A stretch of 40,422 nucleotides of DNA, taken from positions 1 to 40,422 of the IMG/VR virus record IMGVR_UViG_3300008952_000113; one strand, given 5' to 3'. The notes under the pieces are model-generated. The model was not told the origin of the DNA. It saw only the letters and a program-made list of their open reading frames with translations, and searched no databases. Both the position numbers and the translations under genes were made by a program. Source of the stretch: a virus. Positions 3,416 to 17,732 of the stretch are shown in pieces (the stretch's first letter is position 1; each line of letters opens with the position of its first letter).

Positions 3416-3652
3416 TTAATTGATTTCTGTCTTCTCTAATCCCCGAAGCATCATCCAATTCAAAACATCGAATGGGCCGCCGTAGGTAACGATAACGTCA
3501 TATTCGCTATCTTTGTATTTCTCGTTTAGTTCGTCACAGGCAGCTTCGGTTTCTTCGGCACTCCGAAGGGTGCGTCGCTCCTGGATCTTGAGCTTCGTGT
3601 TGTGTATCACCACAACTGAATTAAATTTTCTTTTCTTCTTCTCTCCCGTCAT
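3416..3652 (-). CDS. Hypothetical small protein
   Basis: This encodes 78 residues with a basic N-terminus, a predicted beta strand (SVVVIHN), a charged helix, another strand (YDVIVTYGG) and a final helix, so it is probably a small alpha/beta domain. It overlaps the end of the DnaE-type polymerase gene by four bases (ATGA-type junction) and is therefore likely translated with it. No family is recognised. A role as a polymerase accessory would rest only on its position. Confidence 0.55.
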   Translation of the reverse strand: MTGEKKKRKFNSVVVIHNTKLKIQERRTLRSAEETEAACDELNEKYKDSEYDVIVTYGGPFDVLNWMMLRGLEKTEIN

Positions 3653-6600
3653 CCTAAAACCCTGAAGTTATGATATATGCTGCGTGTGGAGAATCCCCAC
3701 TGCTCGCTGAAATCTAACTTCGCCATATAAGGTCGGTTGATTTGAATTCTATCTCTGTGTTCTTTAACTCCCCAGCACTTGATGTGTGTGAGGACGCTGT
3801 TCTCATCCACGACCTCGATAACCCAATAGGTCTTGTCGTTTTTGGTCTTTCGTGCCGTCACTTTCCGTGGGACAAACCACACCAAGTTCAAGTCGGGGTC
3901 GTAGTCTGAAATTGCTGGGACGCAATATTCCTTTAATCTTTGTTGGATGGGCTCATCAACGACAAGATGGATTGGAAACACGCCAGTTAAGCTGGCCAGA
4001 TATTCAATCTTCTCCTCGATGGCAAAGTCTCCCTCTGGCGCATACATCTCAATGTTTTCTTCTAAGTCCTTCTCTTTCCGGGGGCGTTCGACTGCCACCG
4101 CTGACCAGTAATGTTTAAGACCAGTGAACCGATCATCCATCAAGCAATTCAATGCTTGGCTTCTCACCAAGACATCCAAAGCTTTCTTGTTGAGCTTGCT
4201 GTATACCATGTCCTCGTTGAAAAGAAAGTCCTCAATTTTATGGAAAGGTCTGCCATTGTAGATTTGTTCAATTGCCGACTCACCAAGTCCCTTGATGGAA
4301 GTGAGGGGTTGAATGAGGGCGTTGCCATCATCCGAGATTTCCCATACCCTTCCAGACGTGTTGACGTTTAACTTCTCAATACCAAACCCCAAACTCTTTG
4401 CGACATTGATTGCGGCCTCTTTTCGCCCTTCGGGCTCTTTGTCGAGAAATGCTGCCATCCATTCAACTGGATAATAGTTGAGCAGATGAGCACACTGATA
4501 AGATAGTGTAGCGTAAGAAACCGCATGTGATGCGTTGAAGCCATAACCTGAGAAGAATTCCATTTTCTCCCACAGTTCCATTGCTTGTTGCTCAGTAATT
4601 CCCTTGTCGACACATCCGTCAACAAACTTTAGTCGGATCTTTTCTAGTTCTTTGGCGCCTTTGCCTGTTCCTTTTTTAGTTAATAGCTTGCGAAGGGCAT
4701 TGCCCTCGTCCAAAGATATATCACGACCAAGTTTGTGGGCTAGCAAAGCCAGCTGTTCTTGGAAAATAATGAAGCCATAAGTTTCCTCAAGACACTCTTT
4801 GATGACTGGATGGACATATTCAATTTCTTCTGGGTTTTTTATTGCCTTCGCATAACGCTTGGCAACACCTGCAGACAGCGGGCCCGGTCGATAGATCGCA
4901 GTGATGGCTGACAGATCTGCAAGACTTGTGGGCTTCGTATCTTTGCAGAATTTTTGTGCCCCATCTTGAGTGAATTGAAAAACGCCAGCCCATTTTCCTT
5001 TATGGAAGATGTTCTTCCACACTTTCTGATCACCAAAGTCAATCGTATCTGGGTGAAGGTGTTCCTCGTAATACGCTTTCACCTGTGCGAAAGTTGGCTC
5101 CGGTATATCATGCTTCCTTATTAAGATGTGACGTATCGCTCCCTCAATCATGCGAAGTGAAGCGAGTCCCAAGATATCAAACTTAATAAAGCCCATGGGT
5201 TCCAAGTGACGAACGTTCTGTCCCTCGCTCCACGGTGTCTGCCGGACGCCACCGGATGATATGAGGGGCATGTGATGGTCGAGGTTCTCGCCCACCAAAA
5301 TTCCACCAGCGTGGCGTGAACAGCTTCGAGTACTCCCAAAGATTCTCAACACATGCGTCTTTACTTGAGGGTATTTGTTCAAGAAAGCCTTGAGACTATC
5401 TGAATATTCTAATACCTCTTCAAAGGTTGGGGCGTATACACCTGCAGCAATTCCATTAGCTTCCTTCGCTCTGGGTGTTGCCTCGTGGATCATCTTACTT
5501 GTGACACCATTGGCCTCAGCGAAGTCGATGTTGTAAAATTTGGAGATGTCTTTGATGAGTGATCTCAATTGGAGAGTGTTCCAGTTAGAGATGGGAACCA
5601 CAACGTTGTCTCCCCATTCCTTAATGAACATATCTTTTAGTTCCATCGGATCGGCCACATCATAATCAATATCAGGGTAGTCTACTGTATCCTTCCGTAA
5701 GAATCTCTCGAACTGAAGGTTGTATTTGATGGGATCAATTTGAGTAATGTTAAGACAGTAGGCGATGAGCGAACCTGCGGCTGAACCTCGTCCTGCGCCT
5801 ACAAGCTGGGCCTCTTGTGCCTTGTCTGAAATGGCCCTCATAGTCAAAAAGTATTTACTAAAACCTCTGGAGCTGATAACATCAAACTCTTGTTCAATTC
5901 TCTCCTCGTAATTTTTCTTTCCGGTGAGGCCACGCTTTGCAAGACCGTCGCGGGTGAAGTCCATCAAAGCGTCGTCTGCAGTCACACCTTCTGGCACAAC
6001 GAAATCAGGAAGTCGCACCGTGTTGTCGGGAAAGAAAGACTCAATCTTTTCGTGGGCAATTTCATACGTTCGCTCGATGCTGTCCAAGATTAATTGCTCA
6101 TCATACTCCACGCCTTTGGGGAAGAGTGGTGTGTCCTTCTCCCGATAAATCCAATTGTCTGGCTGAGAGTATTTGCGATATGCTTCGAGCATCTCATCAC
6201 CGTTCTTGGGGTATAGTTCGCACCGAGTCTCATCGATAGTGTCGGGCAGCGTTGCCTCAGTGAGTCCCTTACCAAGCCAGCCCAATTTCTTATATAGTTC
6301 GCGGTCCTTCCATGACGCTTTGTCTGGGTAGTGGCTGTCCGAAGTCGAGACAAGTTGAATGTCCAACTCTTCGCACACTTTAATTACAAATTTGTTTATG
6401 GCGTGTTGGTCGGGAATTGCATTCCACTGAACTTCTCCGTAAAAATTATCTCCGAAGATTTCTTTGAATCTGGTGGCTGTCTTTTTCATCTCCTCGTAGA
6501 CGGCCTCTTCGCCCTGTTCACGCTTGGCCCAATAGTTACTTGCAAAGGCGCCGCCCATACAGGCACTACAAACAATCAACCCCTCGCCATATTTCTCCAA

Positions 6601-7113
6601 CATCTCAAAGTCAATGCGTGGGTATCGATAAAAATTTTCGGGAGTATAAGAATCAGAGATCATTTTGAAGAGGTTGTTTAACCCCGCCTGACTAGAAACC
6701 AGCAAAACAAGATGACTGCGGCGAGACAGAATATCTTTAACAGCACTTTTGCTTTCTTCTTCATCCTCTACCGTGGTCCCAGTTGCCTCCGCTAATCCTT
6801 TAGCCTTCTTCTTATCTAGTTCGGCCAATTGCTTTTCTTCGTGCCATTCCTCCAAAGAAGGCACAAAATATGCCTCGCACCCATAGATCGGCTTAAAGTC
6901 CTTGCCATTCGCCTGCATTTCCTTCGCGTGGAGAACCTGATACGCAAGGCCATTCATGTTCCCATGATCGGTGAGGGCCAAGGCATCCATGCCATTTTGA
7001 TAGGCTGAGTCCATGTGTTCTTGTGGATAGCCGAGTGCATCGAATGGCGAACCTGCCACGCTGTGGGCATGAAGCCCGACGTACTTTACTTTAGAATCTT
7101 CTCGTTCGCTCAT
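3649..7113 (-). CDS. dnaE: DNA polymerase III alpha subunit (DnaE-type, PHP domain)
   Basis: This encodes 1154 residues, close to the normal length of bacterial DnaE. The N-terminus carries a PHP domain with LHAHS (about 14-18) and LTDHGNMNG (about 43-51). The family C palm has the catalytic PDIDYD motif near residue 480, preceded by GAGRGSAAGSL. Further on are YGFNASHAVSYA (family C fingers region), a helix-hairpin-helix-like IKGLGESAIEQI near 900, and a C-terminal OB-fold-like segment (ARKTKNDKTYWVIEVVD). It should be the main replicative polymerase, acting with the DnaB-type helicase and gp32-like SSB in the window. T4-type phages normally encode a family B polymerase, so a DnaE-type enzyme beside a T4-like virion module is unusual. 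No sliding clamp or loader is seen here. Confidence 0.93.
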   Translation of the reverse strand: MSEREDSKVKYVGLHAHSVAGSPFDALGYPQEHMDSAYQNGMDALALTDHGNMNGLAYQVLHAKEMQANGKDFKPIYGCEAYFVPSLEEWHEEKQLAELDKKKAKGLAEATGTTVEDEEESKSAVKDILSRRSHLVLLVSSQAGLNNLFKMISDSYTPENFYRYPRIDFEMLEKYGEGLIVCSACMGGAFASNYWAKREQGEEAVYEEMKKTATRFKEIFGDNFYGEVQWNAIPDQHAINKFVIKVCEELDIQLVSTSDSHYPDKASWKDRELYKKLGWLGKGLTEATLPDTIDETRCELYPKNGDEMLEAYRKYSQPDNWIYREKDTPLFPKGVEYDEQLILDSIERTYEIAHEKIESFFPDNTVRLPDFVVPEGVTADDALMDFTRDGLAKRGLTGKKNYEERIEQEFDVISSRGFSKYFLTMRAISDKAQEAQLVGAGRGSAAGSLIAYCLNITQIDPIKYNLQFERFLRKDTVDYPDIDYDVADPMELKDMFIKEWGDNVVVPISNWNTLQLRSLIKDISKFYNIDFAEANGVTSKMIHEATPRAKEANGIAAGVYAPTFEEVLEYSDSLKAFLNKYPQVKTHVLRIFGSTRSCSRHAGGILVGENLDHHMPLISSGGVRQTPWSEGQNVRHLEPMGFIKFDILGLASLRMIEGAIRHILIRKHDIPEPTFAQVKAYYEEHLHPDTIDFGDQKVWKNIFHKGKWAGVFQFTQDGAQKFCKDTKPTSLADLSAITAIYRPGPLSAGVAKRYAKAIKNPEEIEYVHPVIKECLEETYGFIIFQEQLALLAHKLGRDISLDEGNALRKLLTKKGTGKGAKELEKIRLKFVDGCVDKGITEQQAMELWEKMEFFSGYGFNASHAVSYATLSYQCAHLLNYYPVEWMAAFLDKEPEGRKEAAINVAKSLGFGIEKLNVNTSGRVWEISDDGNALIQPLTSIKGLGESAIEQIYNGRPFHKIEDFLFNEDMVYSKLNKKALDVLVRSQALNCLMDDRFTGLKHYWSAVAVERPRKEKDLEENIEMYAPEGDFAIEEKIEYLASLTGVFPIHLVVDEPIQQRLKEYCVPAISDYDPDLNLVWFVPRKVTARKTKNDKTYWVIEVVDENSVLTHIKCWGVKEHRDRIQINRPYMAKLDFSEQWGFSTRSIYHNFRVLG

Positions 7114-16001: not shown

Positions 16002-16757
16002 TTAAGCATTCAACAAGTCATTAAATGATTTGTCAACACTTGACGCATTATCCTTCGAAGTATACTTCGCGGTTTCAGAAGAGTCTCCTTCCGCCGTTTC
16101 GTCGGAGGTGAGATACTCATCCAAGAACCCCTGAACATCAGACGTACTCTTCTTCTCGAAAAGAGAATCGATATCTGGAATGCTGTCCAAGATTTCCTTG
16201 CAAGCTTCGGGTGTTGCTTCGACGCAAACCGTAGAGGTAGAGCGTTTTGGCGTCAACTTCGTCTGCGGGAATGATTGACCTGCGGCCTTACCGTAGTGAA
16301 GGTCAAGGTCAGTTCCTGCTTCGATGTCAGTGATGTCCCCATACTCAGGGTTCAACACAAGGTTAAGCAAGGTTTCATAAGCCATCTTGCCATAGCCCCA
16401 AATTTTCACACCCAAGTTTTCTTCGCCACGAACCAATACGGGTGAGAAGAATCGCTGCCGAGCGGTAAGCTCTTTGGCCATCTTCACACTGTCGTCATCG
16501 CCTTCTTTATAAAGCTTTCGGGCGAAGTCGCAAACTGGGCACTCATCGCCAAAGTTCTTCTTGGGACACAAGAAGCCAGAATTGCTGCCGACATTGTAAT
16601 GGAAGTGGTAATCCTTGAAAGGATCGCCGTCTTTCGTTGTTATAATACGAATCGTTTGGTTCCCATCGGACGGACGCCAGAAGGCACTCGCACCGTTGCT
16701 CCCCTTAGATTGTAATTTGGTTAAACGCTCTCGCATTTTGCTCATATCAATTGCCAT
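16002..16757 (-). CDS. Single-stranded DNA-binding protein (T4 gp32-like)
   Basis: This encodes 251 residues from ATG at 16757 with AGGAG at a good distance; an in-frame upstream extension is not needed. The zinc site of gp32 is recognisable: His51, Cys64, Cys73, Cys76, nearly the same spacing as in T4 gp32 (H64, C77, C87, C90). The N-terminus is basic (residues 1-20) as expected for cooperative binding, and the C-terminus is an acidic, Ser-rich tail ending FNDLLNA. It covers single-stranded DNA during replication and recombination and should interact with UvsX. It has its own perfect sigma-70 promoter (16815-16843) and a possible attenuator after its stop. Confidence 0.85.
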   Translation of the reverse strand: MAIDMSKMRERLTKLQSKGSNGASAFWRPSDGNQTIRIITTKDGDPFKDYHFHYNVGSNSGFLCPKKNFGDECPVCDFARKLYKEGDDDSVKMAKELTARQRFFSPVLVRGEENLGVKIWGYGKMAYETLLNLVLNPEYGDITDIEAGTDLDLHYGKAAGQSFPQTKLTPKRSTSTVCVEATPEACKEILDSIPDIDSLFEKKSTSDVQGFLDEYLTSDETAEGDSSETAKYTSKDNASSVDKSFNDLLNA

Positions 16758-16814
16758 GTTTTTTCTCCTGTTAAAGTCACTAGGGCAAATTTCCCCTAAG
16801 TGCTGGTTTTTATT

Positions 16815-16843
16815 ATTATACCACAGATCACCTGTGCTGTCAA
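16815..16843 (-). promoter_or_regulatory. Perfect sigma-70 promoter TTGACA-N17-TATAAT
   Basis: On the minus strand TTGACA (16843-16838) and TATAAT (16820-16815) match the consensus at all 12 positions with the ideal 17-base spacer. It overlaps the stop codon of the FtsZ-like gene and should give strong early transcription of the gp32-like SSB gene, with a leader of about 50 bases. Confidence 0.85.
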
Positions 16844-17685
16844 GCACTTTGATCTCTTTTTTGTATCATCACTGAAGATTGTACACAAAAGACGTGTGGC
16901 TCCTCGTATGTGGTGGCATACACCCTATATGAAGTTCGTTGCTCTCCCTCTCGGTAAGAGTCTATTTTCTCTTTCAACTTTGAAAGAAGCTTGTTATCAT
17001 TCCTCAGTTCATCCTCATTGATCCCGCAATAATACATGCGCTCTCGAATGTCCTCCAGTTCAAAGAAACTCTTTTCGTCTTTAGTTTCCAGAGAAACCAG
17101 ACTAATAGTCATAATCCGTGAATAACCAATGCCCTCTGAATCAACACTGAGCACTGGTTGGGAATGTTCAAAATAATTTATAAGATTGAGAGAGGAAACA
17201 ATGTGTTCGTGGATAGCTTCCTCATACCCAATGATGGGAACTTCACCCATAGCCTCCTCAATCTTCTCAATATCAAACAAGAGAAGCTGACTGATTGCTC
17301 CCGAACGTGCATACTCCTGCAATACATTGAAAGCCATATTCTCCTGCAAGTGTGCGGCCTCGTTGAGCGAGGTTCGATCTGGCTGAACATACACTACAGT
17401 TACAGCCCAGGGTCGTGCGTGTTCCAGAATCCTAAGAGTGGTGGCCGAAATGATCTCGCCGCCGCTGACCAAGAAGATGGTTTTTCCCTTTAGGTCTTTA
17501 AAAAAATATTTCATGGACGGGCAATTCTTCTCGTATTTTTCGGGGTGATCTTCTTTTTTGATCCCGCGAGTGCGCTTGGATTTTTCCAAACCAACATTGA
17601 TCTTATAGACATCGTAGTTGTCGCGCTTGGCAAACTCGTCTGCCAATTTACAACCCATATCTCCTAGTCCAATAATGTTTATCAT
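16840..17685 (-). CDS. Degenerate FtsZ/tubulin-like protein
   Basis: This encodes 281 residues from ATG at 17685 with CAGGAG upstream. The N-terminus (INIIGLGDMGCKLADEF) resembles the first strand-loop-helix of FtsZ (T1). Near residues 70-90, TIFLVSGGEIISATTLRILE lies where FtsZ has the GGGTGTG signature (T4). It is followed by VTVVYVQPD (T5 strand) and a stretch resembling the FtsZ nucleotide-binding domain (LLLFDIEKI, IIGYEEAIHEHIVSSLNLI). The tubulin signature is degenerate and no catalytic T7 loop is evident, so GTPase activity is doubtful. A second beta-rich domain follows. The gene has its own promoter and sits between polymerase and SSB genes. A diverged Rossmann protein is the alternative. 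Confidence 0.55.
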   Translation of the reverse strand: MINIIGLGDMGCKLADEFAKRDNYDVYKINVGLEKSKRTRGIKKEDHPEKYEKNCPSMKYFFKDLKGKTIFLVSGGEIISATTLRILEHARPWAVTVVYVQPDRTSLNEAAHLQENMAFNVLQEYARSGAISQLLLFDIEKIEEAMGEVPIIGYEEAIHEHIVSSLNLINYFEHSQPVLSVDSEGIGYSRIMTISLVSLETKDEKSFFELEDIRERMYYCGINEDELRNDNKLLSKLKEKIDSYREGEQRTSYRVYATTYEEPHVFCVQSSVMIQKRDQSA

Positions 17686-17703
17686 GTGATCTCCTGCAGA
17701 TCT

Positions 17704-17732
17704 ATTATACACCCAATGGGCCTATATGTTAA
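17704..17732 (-). promoter_or_regulatory. Sigma-70-like promoter TTAACA-N17-TATAAT
   Basis: On the minus strand TTAACA (17732-17727) and TATAAT (17709-17704) are 17 bases apart, one mismatch from consensus. It overlaps the stop codon of the family A polymerase gene. The predicted start is only about 12 bases before the ATG of the FtsZ-like gene. Confidence 0.65.

Follow-up and report, generated by a model that had tools for sequence, protein, structure and literature searches.

A predicted tubulin-fold protein lacking tubulin catalytic motifs in the replication module of mostly uncultured myoviruses

In a viral DNA record from IMG/VR (IMGVR_UViG_3300008952_000113; the whole 40,422-nucleotide stretch that was analysed is referred to here as the window), a gene lying between those for a small family A DNA polymerase and a gp32-like single-strand DNA-binding protein (SSB) very probably encodes a small protein of the tubulin/FtsZ fold, as predicted by a structural model. 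There is equally strong reason to regard the gene as a conserved component of a broad, diverse and mostly uncultured group of myoviruses, with a replication module ordered polA, small tubulin-fold gene, gp32, UvsX, exonuclease and DnaB. The role that we put first, because of this fixed place among replication genes, is that of a static tubulin-fold scaffold or regulator of phage replication with no GTPase-activating loop of its own; this is an inference made without function data, and we give it a probability of about 0.45.

The gene and its setting

The interval 16840-17732 consists of one minus-strand gene and its promoter (Table 1). The product, the small protein of what follows, begins MINIIGLGDMG (translation of 17685..16840), and has VSGGEIISATTL at residues 73-84 and VTVVYV at residues 95-100. 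The list of open reading frames offers an alternative GTG start at 17712, but the ATG at 17685 is preferred because the relatives start at the same MIN(I/V) and AGGAG stands 5 bases before it. A reading made earlier from the sequence alone had pointed to GLGDMG, an SGGEIISATT loop, VTVVYV, the polymerase and SSB neighbours and the promoter; all are present, on the minus strand, which that reading had not given.

Table 1. Positions in the window of the small tubulin-fold gene, its parts and its neighbours
Feature	Position	Strand	Basis and remarks
Small tubulin-fold protein, CDS	16840..17685	minus	ATG 17685, stop at 16840, 281 aa plus stop; translation, start in relatives, predicted fold
Probable ribosome binding site, AGGAG	17691..17695	minus	Read from sequence
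Sigma-70-like promoter, TTAACA-17-TATAAT	17704..17732	minus	Sequence scan; first hexamer overlaps last codons of the upstream polymerase gene
T1 loop GLGDMG, residues 6-11	17653..17670	minus	GxGxxG nucleotide-loop motif kept; translation and 89-member motif count
T4-loop equivalent SGGEIIS, residues 74-80	17446..17466	minus	In place of GGGTGTG; motif count and model (strand 69-74, helix from 78)
QEYARSG, residues 123-129	17299..17319	minus	Most conserved block of the family, end of long helix 109-128; alignment of 89 rows
T7/H8-equivalent region, residues 174-190	17116..17166	minus	No catalytic NxDxx[DE], no H8 in model; motif count and DSSP of model
Upstream neighbour, small family A DNA polymerase, 402 aa	17722..18930	minus	PF00476 E 7e-12; phrog_17
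Downstream neighbour, gp32-like single-strand DNA-binding protein	16002..16757	minus	PF08804 E 1e-14; phrog_1192; searched as 16002-16769, with four additional residues

Past the gp32-like gene, the window continues with UvsX, a 5'-3' exonuclease, DnaB helicase and ribonucleotide reductase, and further along it encodes a Gp23 capsid protein and a tail sheath, from which the record is seen to be a 40-kb fragment of a myovirus. A second polymerase gene on this fragment, at 3649-7113 (minus), codes for a DNA polymerase III alpha subunit.

The promoter, TTAACA-N17-TATAAT, matches the consensus at 11 of 12 positions. It is not special by count, since the region has six promoter-like sites and shuffled sequences have 5.4 +/- 2.7. 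The same promoter is shared by seven members of the subclade to which the window belongs (the window, L003, L004, L005, L007, L008 and L017). Across the family, TATAAT was found in only 12 of 88 upstream regions (5.1 expected), and a promoter score of at least 10 out of 12 in nine of the 88 (1.4 expected); we therefore rejected the idea of a family-wide regulatory signal, conservation being confined to that subclade. A second sigma-70 site, TTGACA-17-TATAAT, lies ahead of the gp32-like gene (16843-16815, minus), with 12 of 12 consensus matches and a TG preceding its second hexamer.

The predicted fold

An AlphaFold2 model built from 89 relatives reached a pLDDT of 92.8 and a pTM of 0.91. It meets the criterion for the two-domain tubulin fold (a Rossmann-like GTPase domain, a long core helix H7 and a second alpha/beta domain), its elements running S1-H1-S2, S4-H4-S5-H5-S6-H6-H7, followed by a small sheet domain that has a single main helix (the element names are our own assignments). 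By our reading, FtsZ has two helices that the model lacks, H8 and the one between S7 and S8. The C-terminal domain is shortened; the last strand occupies residues 264-271 and the chain ends at 281.

When the good model was compared with known structures by VIA-align, all 50 rows listed were tubulin, FtsZ, TubZ or CetZ chains (Z 20.7-23.6, 257-276 residues aligned), headed by CetZ (3zid_B: Z 23.6, 258 residues, 3.2 A, 13% identity) and including TubZ (Z 22.5) and Aquifex FtsZ (Z 22.1). Foldseek likewise listed 50 rows made up entirely of tubulin/FtsZ/TubZ/CetZ chains (FtsZ at 1e-10), and against predicted viral proteins it gave an 'FtsZ Cell division GTPase' of an uncultured Caudovirales phage (5e-10). 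A weaker model made from ten sequences (pLDDT 61.5) produced the same answer, all 50 of its listed VIA-align rows being tubulin-superfamily chains. The sequence-only reading had proposed an FtsZ/tubulin-like fold, to be refuted by a plain Rossmann structure without a tubulin match; that outcome was tested for and did not occur, so that the proposal is supported.

Sequence comparisons did not add to this. Searches of PDB sequences with phmmer and with profiles found no tubulin; the window protein matched neither PF00091 at E<=1 nor TIGR00065 (the FtsZ equivalog) at E<=0.1, and PF00091 matched one of 89 family members (E 0.001). Profile-profile comparison with FtsZ gave an E value of 0.083 and a score of 20.0, and one of 60 column-shuffled controls reached 26.4; hhalign was never significant against E. 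coli FtsZ, a 21-sequence bacterial FtsZ alignment, two PhuZs or the second phage tubulin discussed below. Common descent is thus not shown by sequence, and it is the predicted structure alone that supports kinship. In Pfam, the window protein hit nothing but NAD_binding_2 (E 0.0025) and F420_oxidored, both under their cut-offs and spanning residues 2-98 only; across the 89 members the commonest weak hit was TrkA_N, in five.

Nucleotide-binding motifs lost and kept

The T1 motif [GA]xGxxG is present in 72 of 89 members, and 16 have A for the last G. The T4 signature G[GSA]G[TS]G and the catalytic T7 motif [NQS]xDxx[DE] are found in none of the 89; nine have some DxxD/E in the T7 stretch, none of them in the context of the motif. 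The suggestion, made before these counts, that the signature glycines had been partly lost thus holds for T4. Candidate guanine contacts, for which the superfamily has N after strand S6 and an aromatic residue and N/D in helix H7, could be placed only through the non-significant hhalign mapping, on which N is present at column 139 in 64/89 members and at column 159 in 71/89, and Y at column 154 in 80/89, the window protein having I139, H159 and Y154. In the QEYARSG block, Q123, R127 and S128 are invariant in the 89 rows, and from the topology of the fold we infer that the end of the helix bearing this block should face the T7 side.

Because the T4 signature and catalytic T7 are lost throughout the family and H8 is absent from the model, the protein is not expected to set off GTP hydrolysis in an adjacent subunit, nor can it, for want of T7, complete a neighbour's catalytic site. 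The catalytic-aspartate mutant D190A of PhuZ, although inactive and not dynamic, still polymerises with GTP (PMC4244570), so that a tubulin unable to hydrolyse GTP need not have lost the ability to assemble.

A conserved family in a fixed place

Relatives of the small protein were found by tblastn in 11 and then 13 viral contigs. To these were added contigs gathered through the neighbouring SSB and polymerase (80 each), whose open reading frames were searched with a profile: 170 matched the family profile among 184 loci, many of which are overlapping stretches of the same contigs. There were 108 distinct near-full-length sequences, with identities to the window protein from 24% upwards (median 33%). 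Wherever both flanks could be seen, the gene lay between them on the same strand, in 61/61 contigs of the gp32-found set and 72/72 of the polymerase-found set (the two sets overlap and share contigs).

In each set of 80 the gene was missing from six contigs. Those in the polymerase set end within the polymerase gene or at most about 90 bases past it, and those in the gp32 set have little upstream DNA. The longest such stretch, the 1261 bases of L035, matches at 98.7% identity a gene inserted after the small tubulin gene in L008. As far as can be checked, it is likely that the contigs without the gene are simply cut off before reaching it. Among eight long records searched, five had a single copy; the other three were one bacterial genome and Mel-JY01 and LR756508, which are phages with a similar replication module but without the small protein (no profile match at E<=1). 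No relative was found by tblastn with three family members among 50,697 named-phage records, nor in a single scan of genome contigs from bacteria and archaea. A profile match in Flavobacterium phage immuto (E 0.009 over 60 residues of a gene annotated as a phosphoesterase) was rejected as chance; the polA-SSB slot of this phage is filled by two other genes.

Insertions occur within the polA-tubulin-gp32 interval. In the closest relative, a 553-residue open reading frame that by eye resembles a GHKL-type ATPase lies between the polymerase and small tubulin genes (L107:6150-7960); an open reading frame like an HNH endonuclease, again by eye, lies ahead of a gp32-like gene (L091:1-884); and other contigs bear other insertions.

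Selection and divergence

In all 27 pairs of 80-99.5% identity pN/pS was 0.04-0.17, which identifies a working gene under purifying selection. The description of the gene as a degenerate or diverged copy in the sequence-only reading needs qualifying: what the profile search that it had recommended revealed is a conserved family, not decay. Comparing each of four neighbouring genes with its counterpart in the window gave the lowest identity for the small protein at 69 of 72 distinct loci. This faster evolution fits a host-facing protein at least as well as a scaffold. There is also a local effect: nucleotide identity to the closest relative (L014) is only 70% in 17100-17399, inside the gene, and 85-99% in the flanking 300-base steps, and the synonymous distance to the closest relative over the small gene is 1.12 (vs 0.16 for the SSB and 0.28 for the polymerase). 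Exchange of a gene segment is the likely cause.

A second, canonical phage tubulin

When eight records of the group were searched with PF00091, a single canonical tubulin came out above the cut-off (L300:1297-2448, on contig IMGVR_UViG_3300025131_000007), a protein of 383 aa with GGGGGTGSS at T4 and a T7-like FDSKD, encoded beside an SMC/SbcC-like gene. It was found in 66 viral contig loci (L300 and 65 further, L308-L372) at 81-100% identity, and keeps GGGTG and FD[SG]KD in 14/14; among named phages it gave only a weak match, to gene 138 of Bacillus phage G.

By profile searches, six records encode both tubulins (G005, G048, which is cut at the contig end, G049, G050, G059 and G060), and the small one alone was found in six long records (G002, G003, G004, G006, G046 and G047; 155-191 kb) and in the 40-kb window. 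In a quick tree of the small protein (in which L088, L001 and L005 stand for G005, G003 and G002), the six double records all belong to a single 20-row fork (support 100), and the six small-only records lie outside it. Of 11 records chosen for their canonical tubulin, three have the small protein; the other eight may be fragments.

Comparison with known systems

Nucleus-forming jumbo phages and a few partition systems are the known sources of phage tubulins. PhuZ/phage TubZ of phiKZ and 201phi2-1 resemble the small protein in being phage-encoded tubulin folds of under 330 aa, but PhuZ matches TubZ_C_2 (PF22334; E 1e-37 to 1e-41), with PF00091 just below cut-off, whereas the window protein matches neither; conversely, the family profile found nothing in the phiKZ or 201phi2-1 genomes. 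PhuZ has a catalytic T7 aspartate and uses a C-terminal tail in polymerisation (PMC3678025, PMC4244570), and the small protein has neither; the extended tail with its acidic knuckle (PMC3678025) is absent from the model. With bacterial FtsZ the small protein shares the fold over 260-270 residues, the order of the nucleotide loops and the GxGxxG of T1, but it has no TIGR00065 match and no T4 or T7 motifs, and at 281 aa it has no C-terminal linker or tail. Archaeal CetZ gives the highest structural score but differs in its catalytic loops, and, as CetZ2 and TubZ come within about 1 Z unit of it, no special kinship with CetZ is indicated. The canonical tubulin belongs to the same phage group and superfamily, but its length, its above-cut-off PF00091 match and its intact GGGTG and FDSKD set it apart, as does its position by the SMC/SbcC-like gene, outside the polA-gp32 slot; profile comparison between it and the small family was not significant.

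To our knowledge, no PhuZ, phage TubZ or FtsZ lacks the catalytic motifs, and no phage tubulin is known that is not a GTPase. A search of the open-licence literature (titles and the starts of abstracts) returned known work on PhuZ and TubZ and no description of the small family. The small protein is neither a PhuZ (by Pfam domain, tail and profile) nor an FtsZ (by NCBIfam), and stands as a new variant within the tubulin fold.

Possible roles

In the scaffold reading, the small protein would be a static subunit of tubulin fold that holds or recruits the phage's replication proteins (SSB, polymerase) and possibly, within the subclade that has it, the canonical phage tubulin also; contact with the partner is proposed to be through the conserved QEYARSG patch. 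This reading, an inferred one, is weakened by resting on gene neighbourhood only, and by Mel-JY01 and LR756508, whose similar replication modules manage without the small protein. It competes with the two functions suggested by the sequence-only reading, an inactive binder of host FtsZ and an unusual filament protein, both of which stay possible. As a decoy, the protein might bind host FtsZ end-on and cap or poison the Z ring, so that the cell stays undivided during replication. A tubulin fold from which the hydrolysis-activating face (T7, H8) is missing would suit such an activity, and the fast divergence also speaks for it, low conservation relative to the neighbours and a diverged patch inside the gene being expected of a host-facing protein. 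However, no likeness to FtsZ in sequence has been shown at the interfaces, and wherever a contig shows both flanks the gene lies within the replication module, which is not a usual place for early host-takeover genes. Alternatively, the protein may form a non-dynamic filament of its own that positions or organises replicating phage DNA, as a static counterpart of PhuZ or TubZ. The whole tubulin fold is there, including both domains, its best structural matches are self-assembling proteins, and the GTPase-dead PhuZ mutant forms stable filaments (PMC4244570). Against this, T7 and H8, which make the lower longitudinal contact in known protofilaments, are missing, and there is no long C-terminal tail of the kind that PhuZ uses, the model ending ten residues past its last strand.

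Two further explanations seem weaker than these and than the scaffold. A partnership of two tubulins, in which the small protein nucleates, caps or spaces the canonical one, is suggested by the records encoding both, all in the one well-supported fork. It is nevertheless unlikely: two records of the window's subclade and four further ones (155-190 kb) have no canonical tubulin by PF00091 or by its profile, so that dependence of the small protein on it cannot be general, and 8/11 records chosen for the canonical tubulin show no small one (subject to the caveat about fragments). That the protein is an NAD- or nucleotide-binding Rossmann protein unrelated to tubulin, with AlphaFold having been drawn to the FtsZ fold, would agree with the weak NAD_binding_2 and F420_oxidored hits being the window protein's only ones, and with TrkA_N being the commonest weak hit in a family in which PF00091 matches 1/89; this is very improbable, because the whole two-domain chain aligns over 257-276 residues, not just its Rossmann half, and the Pfam hits cover only the part common to both folds.

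Significance

A tubulin fold without catalytic motifs appears to be a standing part of the replication module in diverse phages of about 190 kb and less, in a small family that curated sequence models miss, and this raises the question of what such a fold does for a virus when it is unable to cut GTP. A bolder reading, which we consider unlikely, is that a broad, non-jumbo and mostly uncultured myovirus group has a GTPase-stripped tubulin-fold replication protein to which part of the group has added a canonical tubulin, giving a two-component system in which the stripped protein nucleates, caps or anchors the dynamic one at replicating DNA. If true, such a two-component viral tubulin system would be a viral parallel to nucleating tubulins, and the subclade with the second, intact tubulin offers a natural pair for testing.
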